In this document: positions 8,425 through 41,738 of the stretch, one piece after another | How the letters are laid out: every line of letters starts with the position of its first letter | How positions within the stretch are numbered: position 1 is the stretch's first letter | DNA from: a virus | DNA: 44,123 nt | Virus record (IMG/VR): IMGVR_UViG_3300010373_000016 | Span: 1 to 44,123 of that record | Strand: one strand, 5' to 3' | Notes under the pieces: generated by a model | What the model was told of the DNA's origin: nothing | The model's input: only the letters and a program-made list of their open reading frames with translations | Databases searched by the model: none | Translations under genes and position numbers: made by a program

Positions 8425-8949
8425 ATGGCTGTACAAAATTACTGGAACAACCTGACCAACAACCCGCCGCAGGCAACGCCGGCAGGACAGGACGCAGAAT
8501 ACTCCAACACTGGTATTCGTCCTCATATCCTAGAGAACAGCGCTTCTGTGGCGGCGGCAGACAGCTCCGGTTCTACTTATCTCCTGTTCAAAAACGTTCC
8601 TTGGAACGCCCGGCTTAGAGAGCTGAAGCTTGAGAACGACAACTTAGGCGCCGGCGCTCAGATCCAGATCGGACTGGCTGATTCCCGCACCGGCACTATC
8701 ATAAGTGCGACCTGTCTGTCAGCCGCGCAAAGCGCCGCTGCCGCTAATGGCAAGAACGCACCGCTTGATGGGCTCGCCGCTCTGACTCACGCTCAGACCT
8801 TGCAGGCTCTGTACGAAACTGCACTCGACACGCCGATCCCTCCGCAGGGACCGTACCGGTTTAACTATGACGTTGTGATGACGCTAAGTACTGCCGGCGG
8901 TTCCGCAGGCGTTGTCACCGCACGCGGCATACTGACGCCGGCAGGCTAA
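8425..8949 (+). CDS. Capsid-stabilising (cement) protein, probable
   Basis: A 174-aa Ala/Asn/Thr-rich beta-type protein immediately after the capsid gene. GAGG lies before ATG 8425. The segment STYLLFKNVPWNARLRELKLENDNLGAG... suggests a jelly-roll-like fold with a long insertion of small residues (TCLSAAQSAAAANGKNA). In BPP-1-type phages the equivalent gene codes for the cement protein that stabilises the shell, and I infer the same here from position. There is no signal peptide or membrane segment. Function is an inference. Confidence 0.6.
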   Translation: MAVQNYWNNLTNNPPQATPAGQDAEYSNTGIRPHILENSASVAAADSSGSTYLLFKNVPWNARLRELKLENDNLGAGAQIQIGLADSRTGTIISATCLSAAQSAAAANGKNAPLDGLAALTHAQTLQALYETALDTPIPPQGPYRFNYDVVMTLSTAGGSAGVVTARGILTPAG

Positions 8950-8989
8950 ACCAAGCCTGACGGAACACACTACCCCGAAGAGGATGATC

Positions 8990-9592
8990 ATGCGCAAAAT
9001 TGTTCTAGCTATCTTGACTTTATTCACTGTCGCACTGCCGGCGGTGGCGCAGGTCAGTGAACCTCTGCAGTTCGAATATAAGTTCCGAGCACCGGCACTC
9101 TTCACCAAAACCGCCGTTTTCACGATTGGATCCGGCGGGCAGAAAATGGATAACTACGGCACCATTTTCCGCACGCAAGGAACTGTTAGCTCGGTTACTT
9201 CCGGCACGACTACCGTAGGCGTGACGCTTCCGGCTCGCACACTTATCTCGAACGGGCACGGTATTCGGCTGCGCGTTGCGGGACGCTGCGCAGCTAACGC
9301 TAACGCCAAGACGATTAACGTCGTATTCGGCTCGGCCACAATTCAAATTCTCAACGCCGTAGCGTCAAACGGCAAGGATTTTTATGCTGACGTGATGATT
9401 TACCGTACTGGACTGAATGCTCAGCAAATCTCGGTAGCCGGCTATGCCAACGGCGCGCTTATCGACAACCTGTCTACGGCGACTACGCAAGTAGAGACCG
9501 GCACACTTGCCTTGCAAGTGCAAGTCCCAGCCTCAACAGGTGCCGCCGACGTTGTGATCAACGACGTTTCGATTTTCGGTGAATCTGGGTAA
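8990..9592 (+). CDS. Secreted beta-rich protein in the head module
   Basis: A 200-aa protein with a clear Sec signal peptide: MRKIVLAILTLFTVALPAVA followed by Gln, an A-x-A cleavage site. The start at ATG 8990 fits AGAGG 6 nt upstream better than ATG 8984. The mature part is beta-rich with many Thr/Ser/Val/Gly repeats (TVSSVTSGTTTVGVTLPARTL), and its tail contrasts with ordinary soluble capsid genes. A virion protein assembled in the cytoplasm would not need Sec export. It may therefore be exported to the periplasm or surface during infection, or the signal-like segment may act in membrane contact. Function is unknown. Confidence 0.75.
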   Translation: MRKIVLAILTLFTVALPAVAQVSEPLQFEYKFRAPALFTKTAVFTIGSGGQKMDNYGTIFRTQGTVSSVTSGTTTVGVTLPARTLISNGHGIRLRVAGRCAANANAKTINVVFGSATIQILNAVASNGKDFYADVMIYRTGLNAQQISVAGYANGALIDNLSTATTQVETGTLALQVQVPASTGAADVVINDVSIFGESG

Positions 9593-9607
9593 TGGCGGAG
9601 GTCTTTT

Positions 9608-10324
9608 ATGGCCTCGCCTTTAACGTGGGTCGATCTAAGTAATCTCGCGCTTCTGTCCTGCTACCAGAAGCCGATTACTAATATCGAAGATACCGACGAC
9701 CCTGCTGCCGTCGCCGCCAATCTCCTTTACGACCAAGTACGTCAGGAAGAGATCCGCGACGGTACTTGGAATTTCGCGCGAGCCCGGACAACGATCCCGC
9801 TCCTGCCGAACGTCACGCCGCTGACTGATTACATCGGCGCGTATCAGCTGCCGGTGGATTGCCTGAAGCTACACCACATCGGCACTGAATACGACTTGTG
9901 GAGTCCGCATTACCACGACGTCGTAGCGCAAAAGATCGTTTACTTCGGGCAGGCTGGCGATAGCTGGAATCTGATGAACGGCGATGAAAGCCCAGATCTC
10001 AACGATTTTCCTCCGAACTCGCTTTTTATCGAATACACATCGGACATAACTGACGTGTCTTCGATGGATGCCCTTTTTAAGAAAGTCCTACGCTACGCCC
10101 TGGCGAAAGAGTTTTGCATGGCGCTAAGTGGCGACGTGAAGACGCGCCAGCTTATGGAACAGCTCTACATGCAAGCGAAGCGTGAAGCTGCCGCTATCAA
10201 CCATCAAGAGCGCCCCATGCGCATCGTCGAGCGGGATCCGGTCGCATTGGCACGTCTCATGGATACGGAAATCTGGGACGGTCAGATACCTGTGCCGCCG
10301 TCGCTCTGGCCAACAGGAGAGTAA
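9608..10324 (+). CDS. Tail tubular protein A (gp11-like)
   Basis: A 238-aa adaptor that joins the portal to the nozzle. The family pattern YDQVRQEEIRDGTWNFARAR (about residues 45-64) is typical of T7 gp11-like proteins, where a segment ending W.FA..R is conserved. The rest is helical with a beta insert. GGAGG lies upstream of ATG 9608. It is followed after 3 nt by the gp12-like gene, with which it forms the tail tube. Confidence 0.88.
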   Translation: MASPLTWVDLSNLALLSCYQKPITNIEDTDDPAAVAANLLYDQVRQEEIRDGTWNFARARTTIPLLPNVTPLTDYIGAYQLPVDCLKLHHIGTEYDLWSPHYHDVVAQKIVYFGQAGDSWNLMNGDESPDLNDFPPNSLFIEYTSDITDVSSMDALFKKVLRYALAKEFCMALSGDVKTRQLMEQLYMQAKREAAAINHQERPMRIVERDPVALARLMDTEIWDGQIPVPPSLWPTGE

Positions 10325-10327
10325 GCC

Positions 10328-13210
10328 ATGGCGGTAAAAAATCTCGCCGCGCTACTCAACTTCGTTGGCGGGGAAATCTCGCCGCAGATTGCTGCGCGTA
10401 CAGATATCGAACTGCTTAATAAGTCTCTCGCTCGCTGCGAGAATTTCATCTGCCTGCCACAAGGCGGCTCGGCATACAGGCCGGGTACGTATAACGTCGG
10501 CATGACCAAGCTAAACAGTTCTGCATTTCTGATACCGTTTCAATTTAGCGCCGCAGACGCGCTCATGATTGTGGCGTCGAATCGGGTTTTCCGGTTCTAT
10601 CGAAATGACGCCGTCGTGCTAAACACGGCGGTCAGCATTATCCAAATCACGCAAGCAAACCCGGCGCTCGTCTACGCGCCCGGGCACGGTTTCGTTAATG
10701 GCACTGAAGTGTATATTTCCGGCGTTGGCGGGATGAACCAGCTTAACGGACGCTTCTTTATTGTCGCCAACGCAGTCAATAAGGCTACGACGATAAGTGC
10801 GATCACGAAGGCAAACCCTGGCGTGTTTACCGCCAATGGCCACGGGCTGAGCAATGGTCAATACGTCACCATTAGCGGTGCCGCGGGCATGACTCAGGTA
10901 AACGGAAATTGGATAGTACAGAATGCTACTACTAACACGTTTACGGTCGAATCCTTGACTGGCGTTCCTCTCAACACGACGAGTGATCCCACCTATACCG
11001 CCAATAGCGCGAGCGTCGACGGAAGTAATTTCACGCTGCAAGATCAGTTCGCCAATAATATCAATTCAACCGCGTACGGCGCCTTCACGAGCGGCGGCAC
11101 AGTCGCCAGCATCTACGAGCTGGCGACACCATACAACACAGCGGACCTTTCATTTATTCGCACGGCGCAGAGTGCCGACGTAATGTATTTGACCTGCTAT
11201 AACGAAGTGGTGGGTAATTCCTACAACCCGCGTAAGCTAGTCAGAAATGGTTTCACCAACTGGACGCTCAATACCTACAAACGGAAAAATGATCCGTTCC
11301 CGTCCGTAGCGCACACGTCCTTTACGCCGACGAAGATAACGAAAGCGGTTGGCTGTACCGTCACAGTCTCTAGCACTAACGGCTTGTCGGCTGGCGACAT
11401 TGTTTACGCTTTAAATATTGGCGGGATGATCGAACTCGACGGGCAGTTTTTCCAGGTCGGCGCCGTCACTGCTAAGACGTTCGAGCTACTTGACTCCGAT
11501 GGGAACCCGGTAGATTCGACAGGATTCACTACATTTACATCCGGCGGCACGTTTACCAGGCATTTACGCGATCCCGCCTGTTGCGGATACTCCGCCGACG
11601 GGCGACTTTGCCTAGCTGCCACTGAGCAGAATCCAGAGGGCTTTTGGGGATCGCGAACGCCCAAAGGCATTCTGACCCGTTACGATGATTACACCATCTC
11701 CAGTAAATCGAGTTCGACAGATCCCACCCTAGCAATGGCGTTTAGCTTCTCGCCGGTCAACAACACCATTGACATGATTAGAGAAATGGTTCAGTTCTCG
11801 GGTATGTTCGCGTTGCTCGGAGCCAGTTCGATCCGACTAGTTTACGGCGCTCAACAAGGGCAGCCGGCAACGCCAATTGCGATCAACGTATTACCGACGA
11901 TCCAAGGTGCAGCTCGAGTAAAACCGCTAGTCATTAACTGGGATTTGATCTTTGTCGACGTGAACGGACAGCGGTTGCGCGGGCTGCAGTACAACCTTGC
12001 CTATCAGACATTTCAGGCGAACGATTACAATCTGTCTTCTCCGCACTTCGGACAGGAATCGCCATTCATAAAATTGGCTTACGTTAAAGGCACGCCGGAA
12101 ATGGTTTATGTCCTGAGACAAGACGGCATCGTGTTGGCGTTCACGTTCAACAACATCGAGAATATTGCCGGTTGGTCAAGGATTATTCCAGGCGGTGGCG
12201 GCCAGGTCTTGGACATCGGCACGATCCGCAAATCAAACGGGACTGATGAACTTTGGATGATCGTTCAGCGGACTTTGAACGGTCAGACGTTTACTACCGT
12301 CGAAGTCATGGACGTGCAGCCGATTATCCCGTCTCGAGATTCATTTTTCACCGGCGGCTACAAAATCAATCCGGATACAGCGAAAGCTACCGATGACGCC
12401 AACTGGCAAGCTGCCGCGTGGGAAGCGCTCAAAGCTACGACATTCCTCGATTGCTCTCTGACATACGACGGCACCGCCCGCGGCGCTGCGGCTGGAGCAA
12501 ACATTACTATCACAGGTGACGCCACTACTGCCGGCAATACTGTCACGCTGACGGCGAGCGCTAGCGTGTTCCAAGCCAGCGACGTGGGTTCCCAATTCTG
12601 GAAGTACTACACGTCAACCGGCGCCGGCGGAGGCAGATTACAGATTACCGGATATACGTCAGGCACTTCCGTGCAAGCGTATGTCAAAGCGCCGTTCGAC
12701 AACAATAACGCTATCAACGCTGGTAGCTGGGCATTTGCCGTCAATCAGCTTTTCGGTCTTGATTGGTATAACAATAGCCAGGTGAATATCCAAGCCGACG
12801 GCGGCGGACAGCCAGCGCAGACAGTCACCAATGGCAGTATCAACCTGAACATTTACGCTGGCAAGATTCAAGTAGGATTCGGCTATACCGGGCGTATGGT
12901 GACGCAGAATATATCTCTTGGACAAGGAACAGATAGCAAACCGAGAAACATAAAGCATATTTACGCTAGGTTCCTGAATACAATTGGCTGTCAGATTGGG
13001 CCGGATTCGTACATCTGCCCACAGGTCGTGAACAACAAAGCGAACCAGATTCCAGACCGGCCGCCGGCGCCGTTTACTGGAATGCTAAGACTGCGCCAAT
13101 TGGATAAGTGGCAGGACAGCATGAAGCGGGCGACGGTTCTCCATACGGATCCAACTCCCTGCACGATACTTGCTCTGGAGTTCGAAGGCTATGTCACCGA
13201 CCCACCGTAA
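10328..13210 (+). CDS. Tail tubular protein B (gp12-like nozzle)
   Basis: A 960-aa large beta-rich tail protein. The start, AALLNFVGGEISPQIAARTDIELLNKSLARCENFICLPQGG, is characteristic of the T7 gp12-like nozzle family. Three inserted repeats of the type ITKANPGVFTANGHGLSNG ... GMTQVNG occur at about residues 98-140, 155-200 and 335-390 and look like small surface beta domains. These domains may bind carbohydrate or fibre partners, which is inference. Normal T7 gp12 is about 790 aa, so the extra length comes from these inserts. Confidence 0.88.
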   Translation: MAVKNLAALLNFVGGEISPQIAARTDIELLNKSLARCENFICLPQGGSAYRPGTYNVGMTKLNSSAFLIPFQFSAADALMIVASNRVFRFYRNDAVVLNTAVSIIQITQANPALVYAPGHGFVNGTEVYISGVGGMNQLNGRFFIVANAVNKATTISAITKANPGVFTANGHGLSNGQYVTISGAAGMTQVNGNWIVQNATTNTFTVESLTGVPLNTTSDPTYTANSASVDGSNFTLQDQFANNINSTAYGAFTSGGTVASIYELATPYNTADLSFIRTAQSADVMYLTCYNEVVGNSYNPRKLVRNGFTNWTLNTYKRKNDPFPSVAHTSFTPTKITKAVGCTVTVSSTNGLSAGDIVYALNIGGMIELDGQFFQVGAVTAKTFELLDSDGNPVDSTGFTTFTSGGTFTRHLRDPACCGYSADGRLCLAATEQNPEGFWGSRTPKGILTRYDDYTISSKSSSTDPTLAMAFSFSPVNNTIDMIREMVQFSGMFALLGASSIRLVYGAQQGQPATPIAINVLPTIQGAARVKPLVINWDLIFVDVNGQRLRGLQYNLAYQTFQANDYNLSSPHFGQESPFIKLAYVKGTPEMVYVLRQDGIVLAFTFNNIENIAGWSRIIPGGGGQVLDIGTIRKSNGTDELWMIVQRTLNGQTFTTVEVMDVQPIIPSRDSFFTGGYKINPDTAKATDDANWQAAAWEALKATTFLDCSLTYDGTARGAAAGANITITGDATTAGNTVTLTASASVFQASDVGSQFWKYYTSTGAGGGRLQITGYTSGTSVQAYVKAPFDNNNAINAGSWAFAVNQLFGLDWYNNSQVNIQADGGGQPAQTVTNGSINLNIYAGKIQVGFGYTGRMVTQNISLGQGTDSKPRNIKHIYARFLNTIGCQIGPDSYICPQVVNNKANQIPDRPPAPFTGMLRLRQLDKWQDSMKRATVLHTDPTPCTILALEFEGYVTDPP

Positions 13211-13676
13211 ATACAGCTACCGACCCTTTCAACTATCCGATCTCGACTGGATGGATTTGCTCGAGGCAGAAAAGAAAGTAGTCAGCAATAATGCTGAACT
13301 GCTTCGCGGATTCGCCACCAAAGATAACACCCGTAAAAGTTGTTTCGTGGTCATCTACATGGGTAGACCGTTGTTCATTGCTGGCTACTACGACCTTGGC
13401 GACGGTGCGGCGCAGATTTTTATTATCCCTGACAAGCGGGTTCTCGAACACCCGAAAGTGTTTATCAGGAACGTGATTAGATGGCGCCTGTGGCTTGAAC
13501 GCCGTCCATGGTGTAGCCGGATTCAAACGACTTCCGTAGCGAACGAATTGATCGATCGGTGGATGGAAGCTATGGGGTTTGTTTGCGAACGCGAGCTAAA
13601 CCAGTACAATGGGACGGGTCAAGACTATAAGCTATGGAGCCGAGTTAAGCTAGATGGGATTTGGCGGGCTATTTAA
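13191..13676 (+). CDS. gp13-like internal protein with acyltransferase fold
   Basis: A protein of about 161 aa starting at ATG 13191, overlapping the gp12-like gene by 20 nt; AAGG lies just before the ATG. The sequence YSYRPFQLSDLDWMDLL... and FVVIYMGRPLFIAGYYDLGDG...IFIIPDK resembles the GNAT-like fold of T7 gp13-related (DUF2833-like) proteins, which occur at exactly this point of podovirus genomes. The acetyl-CoA loop is not well conserved, so it may be a structural or assembly factor rather than an enzyme. The C-terminus ends in a basic segment that overlaps the next gene by 23 nt. Confidence 0.75.
   Translation: MSPTHRKYSYRPFQLSDLDWMDLLEAEKKVVSNNAELLRGFATKDNTRKSCFVVIYMGRPLFIAGYYDLGDGAAQIFIIPDKRVLEHPKVFIRNVIRWRLWLERRPWCSRIQTTSVANELIDRWMEAMGFVCERELNQYNGTGQDYKLWSRVKLDGIWRAI
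13626..13652 (+). promoter_or_regulatory. TTAAGCTA motifs before the gp14-like gene
   Basis: TAAGCTA (13628-13634) and TTAAGCTA (13645-13652) lie inside the end of the gp13-like gene and directly abut the ATG at 13654. The arrangement copies that at 3842-3868, where the following gene also starts MGFGGLF. Confidence 0.4.
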
Positions 13677-14184
13677 CGAAGAGAATGCGTTAACCAACAG
13701 CGCCAATCAATTTGGTTTGCTGGCTGGCCAGATGCAGCAAAACGCTGCCAATGAACAGGCGACGGCTCTTGATAATCAAGCTAACGTAGCAATACAGCAG
13801 ACGGCGCAGAATGTGGCGCTACAACAACGGAATATCGAAAACGCCGCTGGTACTCAGGCAGAACAGTATCTGTCTAGCGGCGTGGAAGACGTAGGCACGC
13901 CGATAGCTGTTCAGAATGAAACGAACCAGCTCGGACAGATGCAGATAAATTCCATGCTCCAGCAAGGACAGCTGCAGGCTAGCCTGTTGCGCACGCAAGC
14001 CGACTACGCGCAGGATCAAGGGCTTGAAGCCATGCTTGGCGCTAGAGGTAGCGCTGACATAAACACGCTACAGAATGAAGTTAACCAAACCCAAACCAAA
14101 GACCAGTTTATGAACAGCCTGATCGGCGGCATTGTTCCCGGCATCGTGCAAGGCGGTTTCAGCATACTTAAAGGCTTGATCTAA
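13654..14184 (+). CDS. gp14-like internal virion protein
   Basis: A 176-aa Gln/Asn/Ala-rich protein in the gp14 position. T7 gp14 leaves the virion first and forms a pore in the outer membrane during DNA ejection. The N-terminus MGFGGLF is shared with the small protein at 3869. The middle is a long predicted coiled coil (QANVAIQQTAQNVALQQRNIE), and the C-terminus has a hydrophobic Gly-rich stretch (FMNSLIGGIVPGIVQGGFSILKG) suited to membrane insertion. It ends in TAATG, overlapping the next start by one base. Confidence 0.8.
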   Translation: MGFGGLFNEENALTNSANQFGLLAGQMQQNAANEQATALDNQANVAIQQTAQNVALQQRNIENAAGTQAEQYLSSGVEDVGTPIAVQNETNQLGQMQINSMLQQGQLQASLLRTQADYAQDQGLEAMLGARGSADINTLQNEVNQTQTKDQFMNSLIGGIVPGIVQGGFSILKGLI

Positions 14185-16139
14185 TGGCAAAAATCACACC
14201 GTTTCAGGCTGACCTAGCTAACCGCCTTGTCGGAACTCCCGGCATAAATCCGGCTGCAGGAAAAGCAGCCTCGGAGCTGGCAGGCAAGACCGAACAACTC
14301 GAGGGAGCTGTTAACAGCCTCGCCAATCAGCAGGCAGGTTTTGAAGGCAGCTTGATGGGTTCGACTATTGGCGAAGTGGCGCGCGGGGCTGGCGAACTTT
14401 TCGCACAGCACGAAGCCAAAGTCAGGACGCAGCAACAGGCTTTAAACAAAGCGCATGTCGCTATCGCAGCGTACAAAGCCGCCGACGCGATGGACGATCA
14501 GCTAAACCAGGCGCAACAGCAACACGTCAATGACCCTGAGAACATTCCTTCCTCAGTGGAGGATTACATCCAGCAGCAAAAGCAGCCCTACCTCGATCAG
14601 TTCACGGATCCTCTTTTGCGGGCGCAGGCGGAAGAACACTACGAAGAACACGCGAACGTAATCAGAAACAAAGCGCGTGCAACTTCTCTCGACAAACAGA
14701 CAAAGCAGCTCGAGGCGATTCCCGCACAGGTGACGACCAAAGGGCTCCAGGCGATAGCCAACGCTCCTGACGGCAGCCCTACAACCGTCATGAATGAATG
14801 GCAGACAAACATGCACAATGGCACTCTTGCCATTGGACGGCTTGCACCACAGCTCGGCAACAACTACACAAACGCGGCGCTCGACAATCATGATCGGCAA
14901 TTGGCGAAAGGCGCTTACACAAAGATGGCGAGCGACCGCCCAGACGATCCCGTGCCTTCCATGCAGCAGATCGCCCAGACTCGCATCCTTCTGAAAGGGA
15001 ATCTGTCGATCAATGAATCTCTCACGCCTGAAGATAAGAAAGAGATTCATGCGAGCCTTGATGCCGCTGAAAGTAGCGATGCAAGGAGACTACAGCAGAA
15101 CCTCAAGATTGAGACTGCTAGTTTTATGTCGGCTTCAATAAGGAAAGCCGCCGATCTTGATGTACGCCGTGACGATCCGGAAGTACAGCAAAAACAGATC
15201 CAAGCATCGATTAAAGGCTTGGATGCCTTGAATGTAGATAAAGAATCTATCTTGAAAGACGCGCAGAATTTTCCGGCGGAAGTCACGGCGGCCAGACTTC
15301 AAGCCAACGAGACGCAGGCGCGCGAACTTCGTAGCCTTATCGATCTGGCTCAACGGCACATCGACTATAAGAAAGCGGTTGATCGGCAAGACGCGGCGGA
15401 AGCCCGCCGGATACAAGCCGAAATACAGAGAAACGAGAATGAAGCGAAGCGGGAAGCAAAAGCCCAGCTTAACGCTGAAGCTACTGACGCCGTCGCTGAT
15501 CTTCGAGAGCGTCGCGACAATATCCGCACGTTAATGACGGAAGATCCTATCGGTAACCACGATCAGATCGTTCAAGGATTGGCGGAAGCTCACCAGAAAG
15601 CGTACCTGATAAACAAAGCGTACCCGGCAAAGTCCTCAGAACTTACCTCTACTATCAACCTGCTTGACGCAGCGGCTATGCAGTACGCGAAGAACTTTAA
15701 GCGCGACTGGTACGACATCGGCGGCCAGCTTCAGGACTACGGCACGTATTTTTCCAGCGGGCTCAAAGATAGCGCTGTGAGCGTGCAACGTAAGACGCAA
15801 TTTGTCAATGACGTAAGAGGTTTGGCGCAGCAAATGGACGATGCCAGTAAGATGGAGAAAACCGGAGCGGCAATCAATCTCACGCCACGCGCACAGGAGA
15901 TGGCCAGCAAGTGGTTTGACTCCTGGCAAAAGACTAACCCGAACGCGACCGCTGCCGTTAAGCTTCAATCGCAGCTGACGATCCAGCAATACGCGGCAAA
16001 ACAATTCCCGCCGCCTCCATCTGCAAAGCAGCTTGAAAATGCTGGACAGCCGCATACTTTGCGGACAACGAAAGCGCCAAGCACGAAAGGTTTTGTTTCG
16101 CCTCCTAAAGTAGCGCAGGACTCGAATAATGGCGAATGA
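14184..16139 (+). CDS. gp15-like internal core protein
   Basis: A 651-aa, almost entirely helical, Gln/Ala/Lys-rich protein in the gp15 position. In T7 this protein forms the periplasmic tube with gp16 after ejection. Long charged heptad-like helices occupy residues about 300-430 (for example EARRIQAEIQRNENEAKREAKAQ written in part). It has no signal peptide or membrane helix. The start is coupled to the upstream gene (TAATG), and the C-terminus is Pro/Lys-rich and overlaps the next gene by 11 nt. Assignment is by position, size and composition. Confidence 0.78.
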   Translation: MAKITPFQADLANRLVGTPGINPAAGKAASELAGKTEQLEGAVNSLANQQAGFEGSLMGSTIGEVARGAGELFAQHEAKVRTQQQALNKAHVAIAAYKAADAMDDQLNQAQQQHVNDPENIPSSVEDYIQQQKQPYLDQFTDPLLRAQAEEHYEEHANVIRNKARATSLDKQTKQLEAIPAQVTTKGLQAIANAPDGSPTTVMNEWQTNMHNGTLAIGRLAPQLGNNYTNAALDNHDRQLAKGAYTKMASDRPDDPVPSMQQIAQTRILLKGNLSINESLTPEDKKEIHASLDAAESSDARRLQQNLKIETASFMSASIRKAADLDVRRDDPEVQQKQIQASIKGLDALNVDKESILKDAQNFPAEVTAARLQANETQARELRSLIDLAQRHIDYKKAVDRQDAAEARRIQAEIQRNENEAKREAKAQLNAEATDAVADLRERRDNIRTLMTEDPIGNHDQIVQGLAEAHQKAYLINKAYPAKSSELTSTINLLDAAAMQYAKNFKRDWYDIGGQLQDYGTYFSSGLKDSAVSVQRKTQFVNDVRGLAQQMDDASKMEKTGAAINLTPRAQEMASKWFDSWQKTNPNATAAVKLQSQLTIQQYAAKQFPPPPSAKQLENAGQPHTLRTTKAPSTKGFVSPPKVAQDSNNGE

Positions 16140-19100
16140 TCAGCAAACAGCAACGATTCCGCCGGAACTGCAGGGCGCACTTCAACAGGTGCAACAGGCT
16201 AATGCAGGCAGTTCAAGGACGCCATTAGCGACAGTTCCCGATGGGCTGCCCGACGAATTATCTCAGCAGCTTAAAGGCGTTGCTGAGCAGGAACCGCCAA
16301 GAGTTTCACCGACCGGACAGACGATTGAGCCTCAGCCCGGATGGCAGAATACGTGGAAAGGAATTACCGGCAATCTGGTAGGTGGCTCCTATGGCGCCGT
16401 CAAAGAGGCGGCTGCCGGTCTTGCCATTGGCGGCGGACTCTCTGACTTTGAGCAGCAGAAAAAACAAGTCGAAGATGACATTTATCTTCGCGCGCAGGCT
16501 GATGCGGAGGACTACGCAAACGGTCCGGGGCATAACCTGCTTACCGATATTATCGGCGGTGGCGTCCACGTTCTGCCCATGGCGGGAATCGGTTTAGGTG
16601 CAACGGCTTTAGGCACTCTTGCTACAGCTCCATTCCTTGGACCGGCAGCGCCATTTGCCGGGCTTGGCTTCGGTGCTCTGACAATGGGCACGCTGGCAAC
16701 AGGTCAGGGGATATACCGGCACATGAAACAGGGCTGGAGCAAAGACCACGCGCTAGCAGGCGGTTTGTTTTCCGGTGCAGTGGCAGCCGCAATGCAATTC
16801 GTAGGTATGGGAGCCAGCGAGAAAGCGGGAGCCGACACATTAGCGACTCTGGCATCGTCGCCAACTTTTCGGCAGGCAGTCACGGAAGTGACCGGGCATA
16901 TCGCTAAATCCATAGGCGTGAACGTCGGACTTGCCGGTGTGACTTCAGTAGCTGACGGAGCAGTAGATTATCTGCTAGCGGCTAAGCCTAAGACAATGCA
17001 GCAGGCGCTTTCGGCAGTTGCGCAAGAGTTTTATCAAAGTTCCGTTGCCGGTGTACTTCCGGCAGCCATCATCGGCGGTGGCGCGGCGGCGCTCGGCATC
17101 CGTGCGCGCATGAGTGCGACCGAACAGCATATCGAAGTTCTACGAAAAGCACTCGATCATGCGACACAGCTTAAAACGAAAGCGGAGCAGCCGACGCTCG
17201 AAGGGCACGTCGAAGAATCTGTCAGCGCAGACGATTTAGAAGCTCAACGAAAGAACCTCGAAGCTGGCATTAGGCGCAGCACGATTATTCGTGCGGGCTT
17301 GGCGATTAAAACGGCACCGAATGCTGGCGCCAAGGTTTTAGATATCCTTGCGAATGGCGGCACTCCTGACGAAGCCGCAGAAGCTCTGATTGACAGTGAA
17401 CCCGTCGATAAGCCTACGGGAGAAAAGGACCGGATACGTAGCTTCAATATCTACAAAGACACCGCCGGGCTGAACCTCGACGGCTTACTTCGATACGTCT
17501 TTCAACACGTTCCGCCGGCGGAGCAGGAAGCGCTAGTAAGAGCGCTCAGCATTGATCAAGCATCCAACGAAGCTGAAGTGAACCGGATGCTCTACCAGCA
17601 GCTTGCCGACACGCTTTTGAAAGAGGCTACGGGCCTTGATGATGCGGGCTTGACAAAGCTGATGCATGATGCCGCCACCACGAAAATAAAAGGCAAGTGG
17701 TCCGACGGAAGAACGATTCAAGCGCCGGACGAGTACGGTGTCATGCACGTTATGTCAGTGGACGAGGCAATCTCTTACCTGCTATGGGCTGAAAACTCCG
17801 ATGCTCAAGCGGCGCTGTACGCACCGGACGGTAACAACTTTCCGCGCGACTATGAGATCACTTTAACCGAGGCCATTAAAGCGCTTCCTGAAGGTCAAAA
17901 GTATCTCGACGCACTTGAAGGTTTCCGGAAGTTTTACCTTCAGATGGGAAAGACGCTGAAAGAAGTCCACGACCGCGCGACCGGCGATGATCTCGAACTC
18001 CAAATAAATCACGGCGGAACGATTAGGCGTGTCGGCACAGTTCAAGCCGACATGACAGAAATTGAGTCGAGGCTTCCCGGTCAGGAGTACGTCGCAAACA
18101 ATGGCGAGAGAGTCGAATCCACGCATAACGCTACTATTGAACGAGGCGCATTGACTACAGCTATAGCCAAGCGTGGTGCTTTCGCTAACGCGCATTCCCA
18201 TGCGGTGGCGACAGCTAACTACGAAGCCAATGTCGAGAGAGCTGGATTCTGGAATCAGTTCGTAAATGATCCTGACGTCGTTCAGGGGATCACCGGCAAG
18301 TGGAATAAAGGACTTCTTGAAAGAATCCGTGATCGTTACCGGGATCAAGTTCATGGCGTCCCAGCGGCGCAACAGGGTAGCATCGCTGAGATCGACAACA
18401 TAATTCGCGCCAACCGCGTAAGCGTCTTAGGCAGCAACCCTATCTATACATTGCAGCACTGGTTTACGCTGATTAACTTCTTTCTTGCACGAGACAATGA
18501 AGGCGTGCAGATTCCGTTTAACGAGCTGTCTGACGGCTTTCAGCATTTCTTTCTAAACAAAATAGAAGCGGTCAACGAGATTCAATCCTGGGATGAAGTA
18601 AAAGCTCGATACGCAGACGTTAATACCGTTGGCGGCATCGCTTCAGGCGAGCGAACGCCAGAAGAAGTGAACTACGAAAAGAACGCTTTGCAATGGTTCC
18701 AGAAAGGCGACATGCCCGCGCTTGAAGCAGGAACGTACGCGGTCTATCACGTCATCCTTAATCGCACGGGTGACGCTGTCTTGGCAAAGCAGACAGCGAT
18801 CCAGGCGTTCAAAGACTGCCTGGCCTCCGGTTCTTCGCAGCAGTGGACAGACTTGACGACAAACAAAATCACTAAGCTGTTTACTGCTTTCGAGCAGCCG
18901 ACGATTAGGCTGCGGCAGCACTCATTTGAAGCCAAGCTAACCGCCAACAATTTCCCGACGGCTAAGCATTTCCAAGACCAATTGCGTGCGGAACTCGTCG
19001 CACGTACGGCGTCGACCGTATTCCTGGCGCCGAAACTCGCCGTCGCTGTGGCTGACGCTGCGATACTGCATAATCCCAGTACATTGTTCAACACTATGCT

Positions 19101-19407
19101 ACGCATGGGGACGACGCTAACCTTTGGCAATATGCTGCCCGGCGCGAGCACGATAGGTGAGTCAGTTGTGGCGGCGGCTTCCGGCGGACGCTATGACCCT
19201 GACGTTTCCACGCCAGTAAGTCGGGTTGTGATCGGCGCGGCGAAAGCCGCAGGAATGGCGTCAGCGATGGCGACCGGGCACACGCCGCTGTCATTTCATC
19301 ACATCTTGCAAACCGTCATCGGCGTTTACCAGGCGCAGGCGTTGATCGGCAAAGGTAAACCAGTCGCGCCGATGATCTGGCTCGACAAAATTTTTGGAGG
19401 AAAATAA
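16129..19407 (+). CDS. gp16-like large internal core protein
   Basis: A 1092-aa ejection protein in the gp16 position, which in T7 spans the inner membrane during genome entry. Residues about 85-110 and 140-200 contain Gly/Ala-rich hydrophobic segments (GVHVLPMAGIGLGATALGTL, FAGLGFGALTMGTLATG) and another lies near 305-325. These could insert in the membrane. The N-terminal lytic transglycosylase domain of T7 gp16 is not visible: there is no lysozyme-like Glu motif, and the N-terminus is a Gln/Pro-rich linker. The C-terminal half is helical. AGGA precedes ATG 16129. Peptidoglycan cutting, if present in the particle, must come from another protein. Confidence 0.8.
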   Translation: MANDQQTATIPPELQGALQQVQQANAGSSRTPLATVPDGLPDELSQQLKGVAEQEPPRVSPTGQTIEPQPGWQNTWKGITGNLVGGSYGAVKEAAAGLAIGGGLSDFEQQKKQVEDDIYLRAQADAEDYANGPGHNLLTDIIGGGVHVLPMAGIGLGATALGTLATAPFLGPAAPFAGLGFGALTMGTLATGQGIYRHMKQGWSKDHALAGGLFSGAVAAAMQFVGMGASEKAGADTLATLASSPTFRQAVTEVTGHIAKSIGVNVGLAGVTSVADGAVDYLLAAKPKTMQQALSAVAQEFYQSSVAGVLPAAIIGGGAAALGIRARMSATEQHIEVLRKALDHATQLKTKAEQPTLEGHVEESVSADDLEAQRKNLEAGIRRSTIIRAGLAIKTAPNAGAKVLDILANGGTPDEAAEALIDSEPVDKPTGEKDRIRSFNIYKDTAGLNLDGLLRYVFQHVPPAEQEALVRALSIDQASNEAEVNRMLYQQLADTLLKEATGLDDAGLTKLMHDAATTKIKGKWSDGRTIQAPDEYGVMHVMSVDEAISYLLWAENSDAQAALYAPDGNNFPRDYEITLTEAIKALPEGQKYLDALEGFRKFYLQMGKTLKEVHDRATGDDLELQINHGGTIRRVGTVQADMTEIESRLPGQEYVANNGERVESTHNATIERGALTTAIAKRGAFANAHSHAVATANYEANVERAGFWNQFVNDPDVVQGITGKWNKGLLERIRDRYRDQVHGVPAAQQGSIAEIDNIIRANRVSVLGSNPIYTLQHWFTLINFFLARDNEGVQIPFNELSDGFQHFFLNKIEAVNEIQSWDEVKARYADVNTVGGIASGERTPEEVNYEKNALQWFQKGDMPALEAGTYAVYHVILNRTGDAVLAKQTAIQAFKDCLASGSSQQWTDLTTNKITKLFTAFEQPTIRLRQHSFEAKLTANNFPTAKHFQDQLRAELVARTASTVFLAPKLAVAVADAAILHNPSTLFNTMLRMGTTLTFGNMLPGASTIGESVVAAASGGRYDPDVSTPVSRVVIGAAKAAGMASAMATGHTPLSFHHILQTVIGVYQAQALIGKGKPVAPMIWLDKIFGGK

Positions 19408-19408
19408 C

Positions 19409-20104
19409 GTGACCGTACCGAATACCAACTATATGAATAGCTATACCGGCGATGGCGTTACGACGCAGTTTAGCTATACGTGGAATATCACCGAATCTCA
19501 GATGTTGGCGGTCTATGTCAACAACGTTTTGCAGGTGCAAGGAACTGACTATTCATATACAACGAATATCAATACTAGCCAGGTCGGCGGCAATATTACC
19601 TTCAGCTCGGTTTATAACGGCGTGAGCCACGTTGCGGGTCCGCCGGCAAACGGTGCGAATATTCAGATCATCCGCCAGTCAAACCAACTCCAGTCGAACA
19701 ACCTGAACAACAATCAGGCCATGCCGCCGTCAACAGTGATGGCGATGATCGATAAGCTGACCATGTTGGTTCAAGACGCGCTACGCTACTATCTGTCGCC
19801 AGCTACTACGTTTGCTGCGGGGACGCTCTATACGTTGCCTCATAAGCTAGGGTACGTTCCCACTCGTCTGCAATATCTTCTTATATGCACCGTAGCAGAA
19901 GCTGGCTACTCTGTTGGGGACACGATTGACATAACGCCTCAGTTTAATGCGCTTGGCGCGGCTCAAGTCGATATGACAAATATATACGTTAGGACTCTAA
20001 GCGCGCTTGGCGCTATAAACGTTCCGCACAAAACTACGTTCGCTTCAACCGCGCTGACACTTCCTGCTAATTGGCAATTACAAGTTGCCGCTGATGTGAC
20101 GTAG
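19409..20104 (+). CDS. Tail fibre protein with gp17-like N-terminus
   Basis: A protein of about 231 aa starting at GTG 19409, with GGAGG 8 nt upstream and only one base after the previous stop. Residues 1-110 match the T7 gp17-type virion attachment domain (YTGDGVTTQFSYTW ... VYVNNVLQVQGTDYSY ... GANIQIIRQS). The C-terminal part (about 130-231) is a short beta domain and not a long fibre shaft. It is therefore either an adaptor to which another receptor-binding protein docks, or a short spike. The 1218-aa protein downstream is a candidate partner. Confidence 0.85.
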   Translation: MTVPNTNYMNSYTGDGVTTQFSYTWNITESQMLAVYVNNVLQVQGTDYSYTTNINTSQVGGNITFSSVYNGVSHVAGPPANGANIQIIRQSNQLQSNNLNNNQAMPPSTVMAMIDKLTMLVQDALRYYLSPATTFAAGTLYTLPHKLGYVPTRLQYLLICTVAEAGYSVGDTIDITPQFNALGAAQVDMTNIYVRTLSALGAINVPHKTTFASTALTLPANWQLQVAADVT

Positions 20105-20160
20105 CTTGACCGTCGTTAAGCTATAGCGTAAAGTTTAAGCTTTGAAAGCTATAGCTAAAC
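20103..20160 (+). promoter_or_regulatory. Late promoter P3 with inverted TAGCTT/AAGCTA motif
   Basis: TTGACC (20106-20111), a 17-bp spacer and TAAAGT (20129-20134) form a plausible promoter with a weak -10. TTAAGCTA (20116-20123) fills the spacer and pairs with TAGCTT over the -35. Two further copies, TTTAAGCTTT and AAGCTATAGCT, follow to 20157. The 11-mer TTGACCGTCGT recurs on the other strand at 39842-39852. It probably drives the lysis genes. Confidence 0.6.
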
Positions 20161-20174
20161 TAGGAGTCGTCACC

Positions 20175-20492
20175 ATGATCGGAATTAATATCGAAGCACT
20201 CGCCAAATCTGAGATCGCGAAGGTCGAAGCCAAACTGAAAGCCATTGACGCCGATCATGACGGACTGTCCGACCTGGCAGAAGCGGAGAAGCTTGTCAGC
20301 GAAGCTGTTGCCGACCTGAAGGTTCTTGAAGCGAAAGTGTCGCCGGCAGAGATGGCGGCTGCGCTTAACGTACTCTTTCCCGGCAAGTTCAATGCCGCCG
20401 AAATTGCCTCTGCTGAAGCTGCGGTCGGAAAGATCCTCAGCGCTATTAGCCATGCGGCGGGCATGGCGAAGGCTGCGCAAGCGGTGCTCTAA
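20175..20492 (+). CDS. Small helical protein with one EF-hand-like loop
   Basis: A protein of about 105 aa. The start is ATG 20175, preceded by TAGGAG with 8-nt spacing; the TTG further upstream has no such support. It contains DADHDGLSDLAE (about residues 24-35). This fits the 12-residue EF-hand loop, with acids at loop positions 1, 3, 5, 9 and 12 and Gly at 6, so Ca2+ binding is plausible. The rest is Ala/Glu/Lys-rich helix, with a hydrophobic Ala-rich C-terminus (ISHAAGMAKAAQAVL). It lies between the fibre and holin genes, first behind P3. Function is unknown; a calcium-dependent tail or lysis factor is only a guess. Confidence 0.7.
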   Translation: MIGINIEALAKSEIAKVEAKLKAIDADHDGLSDLAEAEKLVSEAVADLKVLEAKVSPAEMAAALNVLFPGKFNAAEIASAEAAVGKILSAISHAAGMAKAAQAVL

Positions 20493-20505
20493 ACGGAGTC
20501 TCAAT

Positions 20506-20832
20506 GTGTCAGACGAGCGACAGGAGATAGAAACCAATGGAAGCGTTACTTCCGGTAGCGATTCAGTATGTTCTTGCGGGAACTCTCGTTTTGTCGCTCT
20601 CTGCGCTGTTTTTTGGAAGACCGTCCGAACCGACTTCGAACACCTCCCACAGTCTGATCGATCCGCCGCGATAAAGATCCTCGCCAACTGGATTGGTGTG
20701 ATCTGCCTGGCGTTCGTAGTCTGTTCCTTTATCTATCCCGACCGGGTGAATACGGCAATTGCTTCGCTCGGTTCACTGGCAACAATCATTGCGCTAATCG
20801 TGCAGCACAAAGCAGGCAAGAAAGATGGCTAA
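20506..20832 (+). CDS. Holin, probable (two membrane segments)
   Basis: A 108-aa protein starting at GTG 20506, with GGAG 7 nt upstream. An N-terminal soluble part of about 55 aa is followed by two hydrophobic segments, WIGVICLAFVVCSFIY and AIASLGSLATIIALIVQ, and a short basic tail HKAGKKDG. It lies directly upstream of, and overlaps, the endolysin start, the standard holin position. Holins form holes in the inner membrane to trigger lysis. The N-terminal cytoplasmic part is longer than usual and contains, in another frame, a small membrane ORF (20537-20674). If only that ORF is real, this gene could start later. Confidence 0.72.
   Translation: MSDERQEIETNGSVTSGSDSVCSCGNSRFVALCAVFWKTVRTDFEHLPQSDRSAAIKILANWIGVICLAFVVCSFIYPDRVNTAIASLGSLATIIALIVQHKAGKKDG
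20537..20674 (+). CDS. Nested small membrane protein inside holin gene
   Basis: A 45-aa ORF in the frame shifted by one relative to the holin and wholly contained within it. It starts at ATG 20537, with AGGAG 10 nt upstream. It encodes one strong membrane segment near the N-terminus (VAIQYVLAGTLVLSLSALFF) and a polar Pro/Ser-rich tail ending IDPPR. Embedded membrane proteins are known in phage lysis cassettes (for example the Rz1 arrangement), so an antiholin or pinholin partner is possible. The start context is good but the embedding makes it a candidate only. Confidence 0.42.
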   Translation: MEALLPVAIQYVLAGTLVLSLSALFFGRPSEPTSNTSHSLIDPPR

Positions 20833-21313
20833 TCAAGTTCTCACGGAAAAGAAGGCTAAGCAAATATCTGAGTGTGGTCTCAAGCTACTCAAAGAGTACG
20901 AAGGACTGCGCCTTGAAGCCTACAAAGATTCTGTCGGCGTCCTGACGATTGGCTATGGGCATGCAATTAAGCCCGGCGAGTCTTTTCCTGACTGGAAGAT
21001 TACGACCGAAGAGGCGGAAGAACTGCTTCTGAAAGACGTAGCTTGGGCCGTCGCTGTGGTCAACGCTACGCCGAATGCCGACAAGCTGAACGCCAATCAA
21101 TTCGACGCGCTAGTTTTGCTCGTCTTCAACATTGGCGCTGAAGCCTACAAGGAATCAACTATCCGCCGGTACGTTGCCAGTCAGCGCTACGAATGTGTGC
21201 CCGATCAGTTCATGCGCTGGGTCAGAGGCAAAGTTAATGGCGTGATGGTAAAGCTTCCCGGCTTAGTAAACCGTCGCAAAAATGAGGTTGTTCTATGGAA
21301 ATCAAAAGCCTGA
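20825..21313 (+). CDS. Endolysin, GH24 lysozyme
   Basis: A 162-aa T4-lysozyme-type muramidase that cuts peptidoglycan at the end of infection. The catalytic triad is visible: Glu in KEYEGLR, Asp in AYKDSVG and Thr in LTIGYGH. The conserved WRW-like C-terminal core is RFMRWVRGKVNG...GLVNRR. Full length for the family. There is no SAR or Sec N-terminal segment, so it depends on the holin for release. It overlaps the holin end by 8 nt and the next gene by 19 nt. Confidence 0.93.
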   Translation: MANQVLTEKKAKQISECGLKLLKEYEGLRLEAYKDSVGVLTIGYGHAIKPGESFPDWKITTEEAEELLLKDVAWAVAVVNATPNADKLNANQFDALVLLVFNIGAEAYKESTIRRYVASQRYECVPDQFMRWVRGKVNGVMVKLPGLVNRRKNEVVLWKSKA

Positions 21314-21621
21314 TCTTGGCTATAGCTGTTTGGTGCACGTACTCAACTGTTGATAGTGTCGCTCAAAACAACATCGACAGTAAGCCCGTCAAACCAGCAC
21401 ATAAGCTTCACCCTGTCGCTGCGATCAAGAAGGTCGCCGGCGGCGCGAAGTTTGCCGTTCAGCATCCCGTCAAGGCTTGTCAGAAAAGCTGCGAAGGCGC
21501 CTATAACTTCAGCCAAAAGCCGAAAGTGCAACACGCCGCAGCCTTCGCTAGCACCGTCGGAGCCTTTTCAGGCGCCGTTTATTTTGTAAAAGGTATCACC
21601 ATTCCGAAAGTCGGCTGGTAG
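21295..21621 (+). CDS. Small exported protein after endolysin
   Basis: A 108-aa protein overlapping the endolysin end. The N-terminus MEIKSLILAIAVWCTY...VDSVA followed by Gln-Asn is a probable Sec signal peptide with an A/V-x-A site. The mature part is basic, with two Cys (KACQKSCEG), and has a C-terminal hydrophobic segment (AAFASTVGAFSGAVYFV). It could be a periplasmic lysis accessory protein in the place of spanins, but no spanin coiled coil and no lipobox (Trp precedes the Cys) is present. Function is unknown. Confidence 0.65.
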   Translation: MEIKSLILAIAVWCTYSTVDSVAQNNIDSKPVKPAHKLHPVAAIKKVAGGAKFAVQHPVKACQKSCEGAYNFSQKPKVQHAAAFASTVGAFSGAVYFVKGITIPKVGW

Positions 21622-21631
21622 GAGGTTCGTT

Positions 21632-21913
21632 ATGTCATTACCCGGGATGCCGAAGTGCTATAGCCAAGCTATAACTAACGTGGCTACTACGGTGAATATC
21701 CGTCTCTGTCGCGCGTTAGTCATCCAGGTCGACAGCGGACAAGACATCTACGTCACCTTCGACGGAACCACGCCGACAGTGAACGGCGCAAACTGCCTCA
21801 AGATTCCTGCCGGAACTCAGTGGCAGAGTCCGCAAAACATCAATATGGGTATCGACTCGTTTAAATACATCGGATCCGCTGCGACGGGCCACCTGTCCGT
21901 TTTCGCGGCTTAA
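21632..21913 (+). CDS. Hypothetical small beta-rich protein
   Basis: A 93-aa protein with a strong Shine-Dalgarno AGGAGG before ATG 21632. The segments RALVIQVDSGQDIYVTFDGTT and GANCLKIPAGTQWQSPQ suggest a compact beta sandwich like small phage decoration or tail-tip proteins. It has no signal peptide. It sits between two genes for exported proteins and 12 nt before the 1218-aa gene, so it may be a partner of that product. Family is not recognised. Confidence 0.68.
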   Translation: MSLPGMPKCYSQAITNVATTVNIRLCRALVIQVDSGQDIYVTFDGTTPTVNGANCLKIPAGTQWQSPQNINMGIDSFKYIGSAATGHLSVFAA

Positions 21914-21925
21914 AGAGGAAAAATC

Positions 21926-24900
21926 ATGAAAAAATTCATAGCCCTTCTAGCGGCACTGCTCACGTTCTGCAGTGCCGCATACGCGCAGCAATACAACGTC
22001 CTGCCGACCGGGACACAGGTAAACGTTATCCCGATTGACGCTACTTCAGGGCTGCCGGCAAATATCGGATCTCGAGTCACGACCACAGCATTCCAACCGA
22101 CTGGATATACGGCGGCGCCTTCGCAGCCAGACGCTTCTATGGTTGTCGGATCTGATGGCCGGATCTATTTGCCGGTCTATAGCGGCACGGTATACGCCAT
22201 AGCCGCCATGAGTACCGGCGGTCAGTTCTCTGTCTACACATTGCCCACAAACAACGCTGTTGGTCAGCTCACGCTTGGCTCTGACGGGAATGTCTACGGT
22301 ACCTATGCAGGTCTTAATAAAATATTCCAGTTGACGACAGCTGGCGTTTTTACTGAGTTCACTTTGAACGTAGGCACGACGTGCTACGGCATCATTTCGA
22401 ACTCCGCTGACAGCAACCTTTACGTAGCGAGCGCTACCGGCGTAGTGATGCAAGTGAACACGTCCGGGTCCGTTCTCGCTACTGTGAACATGACTGGCAC
22501 CTACAACAATGGACAGCTTGCGCTTGACTCACAGGGGCAAGTTTGGGGCGGTGAATCTGGCAAGTTGTTTACGGTTACGACCGCGCCTGCAATCACTGAG
22601 TATTCGATAACCGGAACGCCGACAGCTATCTGTGCAGATCCCACCACTACCACTGTGTGGGCTATGGATGCTGCAGCCGGGACTATTTTTAACGTCGACG
22701 CGCAAACGGGAACGGTCTTATCCAGCGTACCGTTCGTGACGACGCCCGCCACTGGCGTAACAAATTGGGGCAACCTCACGGTGTTTGGCGGCAATTTGTA
22801 CGCCACTGAAGGATCGATCAACCAGCTTGTCTCGATCAATACTTCCACGCTGGATCAAACTCAGTACGCACTTCCGCAGATTAAGAACCTGACCGGAATG
22901 CTAGTCGGATCAGACGGTCTTCTTTACGCCTGCTCAGCGTCGACTGGATTCCTTTATCGTCTGGAATTTTCCGGCGCTCTACAAGTAGTAACGGCTGACG
23001 TGGTATCAGGCGCGGTGCCGATGCAAGCAGCCGCCGTCACTAACAGCAATGGCGCTATTCTCAAAGTCGGCGGCACACCTACCGCTATCGTCAGCATAAC
23101 TGGCAGCTTCACAGCAACCGTAAACTTTGAAGCTTCATTTGACAATTCCAACTGGGTAGCAATCGCGGGAGCCAAAGTAGGCACTGGTGGAATCAGCACG
23201 ACCGCCGCCGGCGCCGGCGACTGGGTTATTCCGATTCAGGGCTATCAGTTCTTACGTGCTCGGATCAGCGGGCGCACTGCTGGCAGTGTCACCGTCAACG
23301 GCTACACATCGACCTCTCTTTCGGTGCCTCTGCCTGGCAGTACCAACGTGATCGGTTCGGTGACTCAATCCGGTACTTGGAACGTCGGACTTAGCGCGGG
23401 TAGTAACGTAATTGGCGCCGTCACTCAATCTGGTACCTGGAACATTGGCAGCATAAGTACTCTGCCTTCGATTCCCACAGGGTCGAATGTCATTGGTGGT
23501 GTCACTCAATCTGGTACTTGGAATATCGGCAGCATAACGACGCTGCCCGCATTGGCGACAGGCAGTAACGTAATCGGCGGCGTCACTCAATCCGGTACCT
23601 GGAATATTGGTAGCATAACTACTCTACCTTCCATTCCTACCGGATCGAATACTATCGGCGCCGTTACCCAGTCCGGTACTTGGACGGTACAGCCGGGTAA
23701 CACGGCGAACACCACGCCATGGGTTGTGAACGACACGACCGCAAATCTTTCTCAGGCTTCGACTACGAGCGGCCAGAAAGGCAATTTGATAATGGGTGCT
23801 GCAAGCACCACTAACCCGACGTTGACGAACGGGCTCACGTATCCGATCAGCCTTACGCAGAACGGAGCTATAAGGGTAGACGCTTCGCTAACATCAAGCA
23901 CGCTGCCAGTCAGTCTGAGCGGTACAAATAATTTCCAACTTCTCGGCATAGCCAAAGGAACGACTTCGGCGCTGAATGCCACCGTGACCAGCCTCGACGC
24001 CAACCATAACGGGCTTGACGTAAACGTGGCGAATGGCGCGACTGTCAACGTGCTTGGCGGGAATAACACAGCGCCGCTGTTCGTCAACCCGACGATCAAT
24101 GCCTTCAACACTCCAAGCCAGAGCACGTACATCGCTACGGCTCAGTCCATTTGCGCAGGAAACGATGGAAACATTTGGGGCCTCGAACCGGGCGCGAACA
24201 AAGTTTTCAAAATGACGACAAGCGGGAACTTCACCGAGTACACGATCCCGACTGCCAACTCACAGCCCACCTGTTTGATCCAGGGCAGCGACGGCAATAT
24301 GTACGGCACTGAATCCGCCACTACAGCGAACAAGGTCTTTAAGCTCACGACTACCGGAACGTTCACCGAATTTGCAGTAACGACGGCCTCGGCAAAGCCG
24401 TTCGCGATCTGCCAAGGTACGGACGGAAACATTTACGGTGTCGAGTCGAACACAAACAAAGTGTTCAAGATGACTACTTCGGGGACGTTCACTGAGTTCT
24501 CCACCGGCGTAACGAGCTTTGTCCCTGCCGATATTTGCCAAGGTGCTGACGGACTACTTTACGTAGCTGGAAACGGCGGCACTAACCAGATGTTTTCCAT
24601 GACTACGGGCGGAACGTTCACGCAGCTGGGAGCCGGCGGAAGCAACTACGTTTGCCATGGCGCTGATAATTGCATTTACTTCTCTGGCGGATCTCAGGCT
24701 GGAGTCATTTACCGCTATGACGGGCACGCTGTTACTTCGTTTGACTCAACAGCCTTTTCTCTGACCCCAACAAAAATGGCTGTAGCGTCGGACGGCAACT
24801 TCTACGGCGGCGTCAGCGCGGGAGGGATAGGCCGAGGCGGGGTTGGCGGCCAGCTAATTCAAGTCACTCCAGAAGGCGTGACGTCGCTTTTCCCTTCCAC

Positions 24901-25582
24901 TTCGTTTGACGGCGCAATCGTCAGTACTTGTGAAGGAACCGACGGTTTTCTTTATGCGCTTAGCGAAGACACTGTTGGGTCAGTCTATAAGGTCTTTCAA
25001 ATTAAGCAGGCACAAGCCTTCGTAAATTTAGCGCAGGGCGGCCGTGTCCTTTCCCAAACAAACGCAGTACCCGTCAAACTAGCAGCGCAGGACAAATCGA
25101 CTTACGTAGCGACAACTACAGCTACGTGGGCAGTGGCTTCCGCGGGTACTGACGTTGTCGTACTTCAAGGGGCTCTTTTCCGTACTGTAAAAGTTCTCCG
25201 CATCCGAGTTTGGGGGAACCAGAGCACGGCGGCTGCAACTGCTTTCTCTATAGTGAAGCGCACTACCGCAAACAGCGGTGGCACCTCCACTAGCGTACTG
25301 CCGCTGTCCATGGACGACGCCAACCCTGCAGCAAATTCAGTGTTTACGCAGTACACAGTAAACCCGACTACGCTTGGGACTGCAGCAGCGAGCATAAGCG
25401 CGAGAGTCGTTACCTCAAACACCCTTCCTACCGGACCTTATGCCATTTACGAAGCGCCTGTAGGGGGGCAGCCGATTACTTTAAGGTCGCCTGCAGCAGG
25501 CACAGCGGAATACTTGGCGATCAACTGCAACGGTAACCCGCCAACAAACCTAGTTGTAGAAATCACTTGGACTGAGGAATAG
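21926..25582 (+). CDS. 1218-aa exported double beta-propeller protein
   Basis: A very long protein with a Sec signal peptide (MKKFIALLAALLTFCSAAYA followed by Gln-Gln). Two blocks of propeller repeats (about residues 60-360 and 740-1080) follow the pattern GSDGNVYGT ... NKIFQLTTAGVFTEFT, like virginiamycin B lyase (Vgb) or GloVer repeats. Between them lie five or six copies of NVIGGVTQSGTWN with ISTLPS-type linkers (residues about 470-590), a beta-helical spacer seen in phage adhesins. The C-terminus (about 1090-1218) is a beta sandwich. It is at the end of the late operon, where receptor-binding proteins usually are. It could be a tail adhesin, a surface protein shown by the infected cell, or an enzyme. 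GAGG precedes ATG 21926. The gene overlaps the opposite gene by 20 bp. Confidence 0.85.
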   Translation: MKKFIALLAALLTFCSAAYAQQYNVLPTGTQVNVIPIDATSGLPANIGSRVTTTAFQPTGYTAAPSQPDASMVVGSDGRIYLPVYSGTVYAIAAMSTGGQFSVYTLPTNNAVGQLTLGSDGNVYGTYAGLNKIFQLTTAGVFTEFTLNVGTTCYGIISNSADSNLYVASATGVVMQVNTSGSVLATVNMTGTYNNGQLALDSQGQVWGGESGKLFTVTTAPAITEYSITGTPTAICADPTTTTVWAMDAAAGTIFNVDAQTGTVLSSVPFVTTPATGVTNWGNLTVFGGNLYATEGSINQLVSINTSTLDQTQYALPQIKNLTGMLVGSDGLLYACSASTGFLYRLEFSGALQVVTADVVSGAVPMQAAAVTNSNGAILKVGGTPTAIVSITGSFTATVNFEASFDNSNWVAIAGAKVGTGGISTTAAGAGDWVIPIQGYQFLRARISGRTAGSVTVNGYTSTSLSVPLPGSTNVIGSVTQSGTWNVGLSAGSNVIGAVTQSGTWNIGSISTLPSIPTGSNVIGGVTQSGTWNIGSITTLPALATGSNVIGGVTQSGTWNIGSITTLPSIPTGSNTIGAVTQSGTWTVQPGNTANTTPWVVNDTTANLSQASTTSGQKGNLIMGAASTTNPTLTNGLTYPISLTQNGAIRVDASLTSSTLPVSLSGTNNFQLLGIAKGTTSALNATVTSLDANHNGLDVNVANGATVNVLGGNNTAPLFVNPTINAFNTPSQSTYIATAQSICAGNDGNIWGLEPGANKVFKMTTSGNFTEYTIPTANSQPTCLIQGSDGNMYGTESATTANKVFKLTTTGTFTEFAVTTASAKPFAICQGTDGNIYGVESNTNKVFKMTTSGTFTEFSTGVTSFVPADICQGADGLLYVAGNGGTNQMFSMTTGGTFTQLGAGGSNYVCHGADNCIYFSGGSQAGVIYRYDGHAVTSFDSTAFSLTPTKMAVASDGNFYGGVSAGGIGRGGVGGQLIQVTPEGVTSLFPSTSFDGAIVSTCEGTDGFLYALSEDTVGSVYKVFQIKQAQAFVNLAQGGRVLSQTNAVPVKLAAQDKSTYVATTTATWAVASAGTDVVVLQGALFRTVKVLRIRVWGNQSTAAATAFSIVKRTTANSGGTSTSVLPLSMDDANPAANSVFTQYTVNPTTLGTAAASISARVVTSNTLPTGPYAIYEAPVGGQPITLRSPAAGTAEYLAINCNGNPPTNLVVEITWTEE

Positions 25583-41624: not shown

Positions 41625-41656
41625 TGTCAATATCTCCCGATTGATGTTATAGTGGG

Positions 41657-41732: not shown

Positions 41733-41738
41733 ATAAAG

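Follow-up and report, generated by a model that had tools for sequence, protein, structure and literature searches.

This locus raises the question of why a podovirus should encode, among its late genes, proteins that look as if they are exported from the host cytoplasm. The original prediction named three such proteins, of 200, 108, and 1218 aa, gave coordinates for them that were correct, and held that each carries a Sec signal peptide of a kind lacking from podovirus virion proteins. The window analyzed here, meaning the whole 44,123 nt of IMG/VR record IMGVR_UViG_3300010373_000016, ends with an exact direct terminal repeat of 123 bp (1–123 and 44001–44123), and is therefore probably a complete virus genome. 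According to its gene content it is a temperate, T7-organized podovirus, with genes for terminase, head-tail adaptor, scaffold, major capsid protein (MCP), a phrog_486 virion protein, tail tubular proteins A and B, internal virion proteins, a short T7 gp17-type fiber, holin, and endolysin, as well as an integrase gene; early genes lie on the other strand. Direct pattern scans gave no match to the three proteins or the portal in IMG/VR, nor to the portal or tail tubular B in GTDB genomes, and thus pointed to no host. An acidobacterial host was considered as a candidate from the style of the cleavage sites (AxA before Q) and the propellers described below.

Signal peptides were scored using a home-made rule (positive n-region, hydrophobic core, and A-x-A type site, with a threshold of 4.5), calibrated on the 42 proteins of a 49-kb E. 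coli control, where it found five of six exported proteins and called two of the 36 others. The N-terminus of the 200-aa protein, MRKIVLAILTLFTVALPAVA followed by Q, scored 6.2, and that of the 1218-aa protein, MKKFIALLAALLTFCSAAYA followed by Q, scored 6.1, both higher than all proteins of the E. coli control. A von Heijne matrix gave 11.7 for the latter; this matrix was kept as a second opinion only, because many cytoplasmic proteins scored highly with it. The Sec/SPase I features sought by the rule are present in both proteins but are not clear in the 108-aa protein, whose N-terminus (MEIKSLILAIAVWCTYSTVDSVA followed by QNN) failed the rule, having an n-region without net positive charge and Asp at −4, and reached only 4.3 with the matrix, which is within the reach of ordinary cytoplasmic proteins of E. 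coli. Judged by sequence, the signal peptides are clear in two of the three proteins and marginal or doubtful in the 108-aa protein. It is very improbable that they are chance or start-site artifacts, an explanation that the failure of the 108-aa protein would suit but that is contradicted for the other two, since scores of at least 6 occurred in 5 per 100,000 shuffled N-termini and in none of 2047 internal Met starts, and since a homologue at 43% identity conserves the signal peptide.

At the threshold of 4.5, no rule match was found in T7, HTVC010P, PfDIW6, or 10KY502B (the last three over most of the genome). Matches in other controls were to spanins, lambda Lom, one VP2 ORF, one protein of phage AF, and one of podovirus ct8d5349. 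The premise that podovirus virion proteins lack such signals thus holds in the T7-type controls, apart from spanins, but does not extend to phages AF, AH02, and ct8d5349, which carry a signal on fiber-like proteins.

The 200-aa gene (8990–9592, plus strand; signal peptide 8990–9049, predicted mature beta-sandwich 9050–9589), for which Shine-Dalgarno spacing favors the ATG at 8990 over that at 8984, is an extra gene between the MCP-adjacent phrog_486 virion protein (8425–8949, plus strand), which has no signal peptide, and tail tubular protein A (phrog_394; 9608–10324, plus strand). Among the relatives inspected, this slot is filled only in the window, L002, and G002, each time by a protein with a signal peptide. 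In L002, whose tail tubular B is 60% identical to that of the window, the slot is occupied by a homologue of the 200-aa protein (43% identity) with a signal peptide ending VVA before Q, and in G002, at 46% in tail tubular B, the protein in the slot begins MKKYLSALLALFFAVCAIQPSFG followed by A. No homology was detectable between the bodies of the G002 and window proteins (hhalign probability 0.1%), and the G002 body matches PDB chain 9eg4_H, "orf16" (E = 5e-23). An AlphaFold model of the G002 protein was discarded, as its pLDDT was 41 and it did not identify PDB 9eg4. The G002 genome is terminally redundant over ~142 bp (L031:19237–19378 and L007:1–142), apart from a mismatch close to the end, and its slot gene spans the junction. 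In L003 and those of L008–L018 that were inspected the slot is empty, with tail tubular A directly after the phrog_486-like protein. Because these more distant relatives lack the gene, and because unrelated bodies share the signal peptide, we read the slot gene as an accessory insertion of which the signal peptide is the constant feature, in what is a small sample of three genomes.

Microcystis phage Mae-Yong1326-1 has a 168-aa homologue of the body of the 200-aa protein, which lacks a signal peptide and is encoded among structural and tail-fiber-like genes. A structure model of low confidence (pLDDT 57, pTM 0.59) predicts a beta-sandwich similar to domains of KP34 depolymerase and phi15 tailspike, which were matched in BFVD together with other Caudovirales proteins; a PDB fold search with the same model gave no significant match. 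The KP34 and phi15 domains, however, sit in virion proteins, whereas the 200-aa domain stands alone behind its signal peptide. Neither the 200-aa nor the 108-aa protein returned anything above the cut-off in PHROGs, Pfam, or NCBIfam. The tail-binding N-terminal domain of T7 gp17 type is present in a 236-aa protein (19394–20104, plus strand), an ordinary virion fiber without a signal peptide, and is absent from the 200-, 108-, and 1218-aa proteins.

The 1218-aa protein (21926–25582, plus strand; signal peptide 21926–21985) contains a Vgb-lyase-type beta-propeller at residues ~713–1010 (24062–24955; Pfam PF24684, E = 7e-41; PDB 2qc5, E = 2e-35), with similarity to PDB 2z2n as well. It differs from Vgb lyase in being larger, in having an export signal, and in its His motifs, PHAI and PHGI in the lyase, which read PFAI and PADI here. 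As the His residues, which we take to be catalytic in the lyase, are absent, binding is a likelier function for this propeller than catalysis. A second propeller is probable at residues ~60–345 (22103–22960), as judged from blade motifs at residues 75, 118, 160, 201, and 328 and a weak PDB match over residues 67–221, and repeats of GSNVIGxVTQSGTWNIG lie between the two propeller regions (residues 482–587; 23369–23686). The C-terminal region (24956–25579) had no relative in the phage collection. Instead of being a phage fiber, the 1218-aa protein could be a secreted propeller of bacterial origin that has been adapted. It is preceded by a 93-aa protein (21632–21913, plus strand) without a signal peptide and with weak Fn3-associated similarity.

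By these features the three proteins do not make up a single set, as the 200-aa and 1218-aa proteins are beta-rich and adhesin-type, whereas the 108-aa protein (21295–21621, plus strand; marginal signal peptide 21295–21363) is small and basic, and the start of its gene overlaps the 3′ end of the endolysin gene (phrog_7; 20825–21313, plus strand). Its sequence and position make a role in lysis or in the envelope more likely. Its mature part has 12 K, no R, one D, and one E, with a pI of 10 and a net charge of ~+10; by simple scan it has neither a lipobox nor a transmembrane segment that would mark it as a spanin, and no lipobox ORF or o-spanin was seen in the window. Given the basic composition, the overlap with the endolysin gene, and the failure to find a lipobox o-spanin, it is a reasonable guess, albeit one we think unlikely to be right, that the 108-aa protein replaces the spanins as a basic periplasmic peptide disrupting the outer membrane after endolysin action. 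A different signal-peptide protein adjoining the endolysin of G002 is in keeping with this guess; the marginal signal peptide, the lack of any homologue found, and the fact that a simple scan can miss spanin genes argue against it. In G002 three further signal-peptide proteins are encoded near the endolysin, two in an operon after it and one on the opposite strand. A 122-aa protein adjoining that endolysin (L030:2380–2745, minus strand) has a strong signal peptide and a hydrophobic C-terminus, and nothing in the phage collection matched the C-terminal region of a 346-aa protein of G002. A cleavable signal peptide has also been predicted on a published endolysin (PMC8951688).

Fiber-like proteins with signal peptides were also found in other phages. 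The 340-aa hypothetical protein of Pseudomonas phage AF (24808–25830, phrog_31472), encoded after the spanins, joins a signal peptide to fiber-like sequence, and its homologue in AH02 (gene 17, ~47%), a phage annotated with P22-like morphogenesis genes, has a signal peptide of its own. These proteins resemble those of the window in that a tailed phage encodes, in its late region, a fiber-like protein with a Sec signal peptide, but there is no sequence homology between them. A profile built from the AF and AH02 proteins and run on IMG/VR yielded 13 loci, including AF itself (L053), near-copies of it (L054 and L055), and what look like two near-identical pairs (L056/L057 and L060/L062). A signal peptide is present at all 13 loci (12 by rule and L063 by reading), including those with only the C-terminal domain in common, such that the N-terminal body changes while the signal peptide persists. 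The strongest evidence for selection on export is this retention of the signal peptide by proteins whose bodies differ. At L060, a second signal-peptide ORF (L060:3413–3817; MKKWLLAILFFCSFSVA followed by AQ) lies immediately 5′ of the fiber-like one. The Manatee Spring podovirus ct8d5349 encodes a 906-aa C1q/BclA-like fiber protein with a signal peptide just 3′ of its T7-type fiber, with a low matrix score of 2.9. On the sequences, therefore, some phages seem to export fiber-like proteins from the host cytoplasm and not to assemble them into particles inside it.

The signal peptides and their conservation, the extra-gene slot, and the relationship to fibers and propellers are thus features of the sequences themselves, and the original prediction of export has good support in two of its three late-operon proteins, with the signal peptide kept in relatives. 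We favor, with moderate confidence, the reading that these are late accessory proteins, made from phage fiber or adhesin-type beta domains fused to a cleavable Sec signal peptide, that most likely act on the host surface or are released with the progeny. In vivo, we infer, they would be produced late from the late block, exported by the host Sec system, and cleaved after A-x-A; folding would follow in the periplasm or on the cell surface, and they would not join the capsid in the cytoplasm. Export together with fiber-type domains suggests action on cell surfaces or on released material, the most likely role outside cells being to bind the host receptor or a surface polysaccharide, which would keep progeny from being wasted on debris or on cells infected before. 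Alternatively, within the same proposal, the proteins may coat or join virions after lysis. Against this reading, no lipobox or C-terminal sorting signal that would account for passage of the outer membrane was seen, and the 1218-aa protein may derive from a bacterial secreted propeller.

Two other fates have to be weighed against late accessory action, and both appear improbable, to a similar degree. The proteins might be virion parts that are secreted, fold in the periplasm, perhaps with disulfides, and are added to completed particles as decoration fibers, either at lysis or later; the genes lie within the structural operon, the bodies are related to phage structural proteins, and the mature 1218-aa protein has 11 Cys. 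The core virion gene order, however, is unchanged in relatives without the extra gene, and we know of no tailed phage that assembles by secreting fibers and then attaching them to finished particles. They might instead be morons for lysogenic conversion, expressed from the prophage and altering the lysogen surface in the manner of lambda Lom, which is likewise exported and encoded among the tail genes of a temperate phage; the integrase gene would agree with this. Lom, however, is annotated as an outer membrane protein, whereas the window proteins are a beta-sandwich and a propeller, and no plus-strand promoter-like match lies near 8990. In the lysis region, the 1218-aa gene has a single such match upstream of it, at 20106, ahead of holin and endolysin, and the scan yields no more sites than shuffled sequences do. 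The genes around the 200-aa gene are closely packed, with gaps of 40 and 15 bp on its two sides, and the signal-peptide genes equal the neighboring structural genes in GC and GC3. Because of these gaps, the lack of a promoter-like match, and this composition, the 200-aa gene is likely co-transcribed late, which would argue against a moron expressed in lysogens. The composition of the signal-peptide genes likewise gave no support to a recent foreign origin.

Exported phage proteins as such are well known, with Lom, Bor, Llp, and Cor as examples. The role proposed here for the late accessory proteins is closest to that of T5 Llp and T1 Cor, which are phage-encoded, exported, and mask receptors; blocking by proteins such as Llp keeps progeny from adsorbing in vain to debris and to infected cells (PMC9586334). 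Llp and Cor, however, are small superinfection-exclusion lipoproteins described as made early in infection (PMC9586334), whereas the window proteins have no lipobox. In the open-access papers searched, fiber-type proteins with Sec signals were not found described as a class, and we therefore read them as a new form of the known exported proteins typified by Lom and Llp/Cor. A tentative extension, which we hold to be possible but short of probable, is that tailed phages carry an unrecognized class of exported fibers, in which fiber or adhesin domains have repeatedly been fused to Sec signals that stay in place when bodies are swapped; such fibers would be produced late and secreted as soluble receptor blockers or surface coats. 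If this is true, a fiber-like domain in a phage genome could not safely be taken for a virion receptor-binding protein, which would affect host-range prediction and virion annotation, and there would be a late, secreted layer of phage–host or phage–phage interaction, open to direct study in the cultured phages AF and AH02.

Some further observations concern annotation and the remainder of the window. Portal protein B is annotated in the lambda reference record as starting with a sig_peptide (leader peptide; L043:2836–2901), which is presumably not a Sec signal. Tail tubular B of the window (10328–13210) has E1_FCCH-type repeats (PF16190), and a GNAT-like acetyltransferase gene, assigned by position and resemblance, lies within the late operon at 13170–13676, with tail tubular B on one side and an internal virion protein on the other; acetyltransferases are annotated at this place in L003 and L004 too. 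Among the early genes, on the minus strand, are a tRNA-Met (cat; 33855–33929) and a tRNA-Ala (cgc; 41653–41733).
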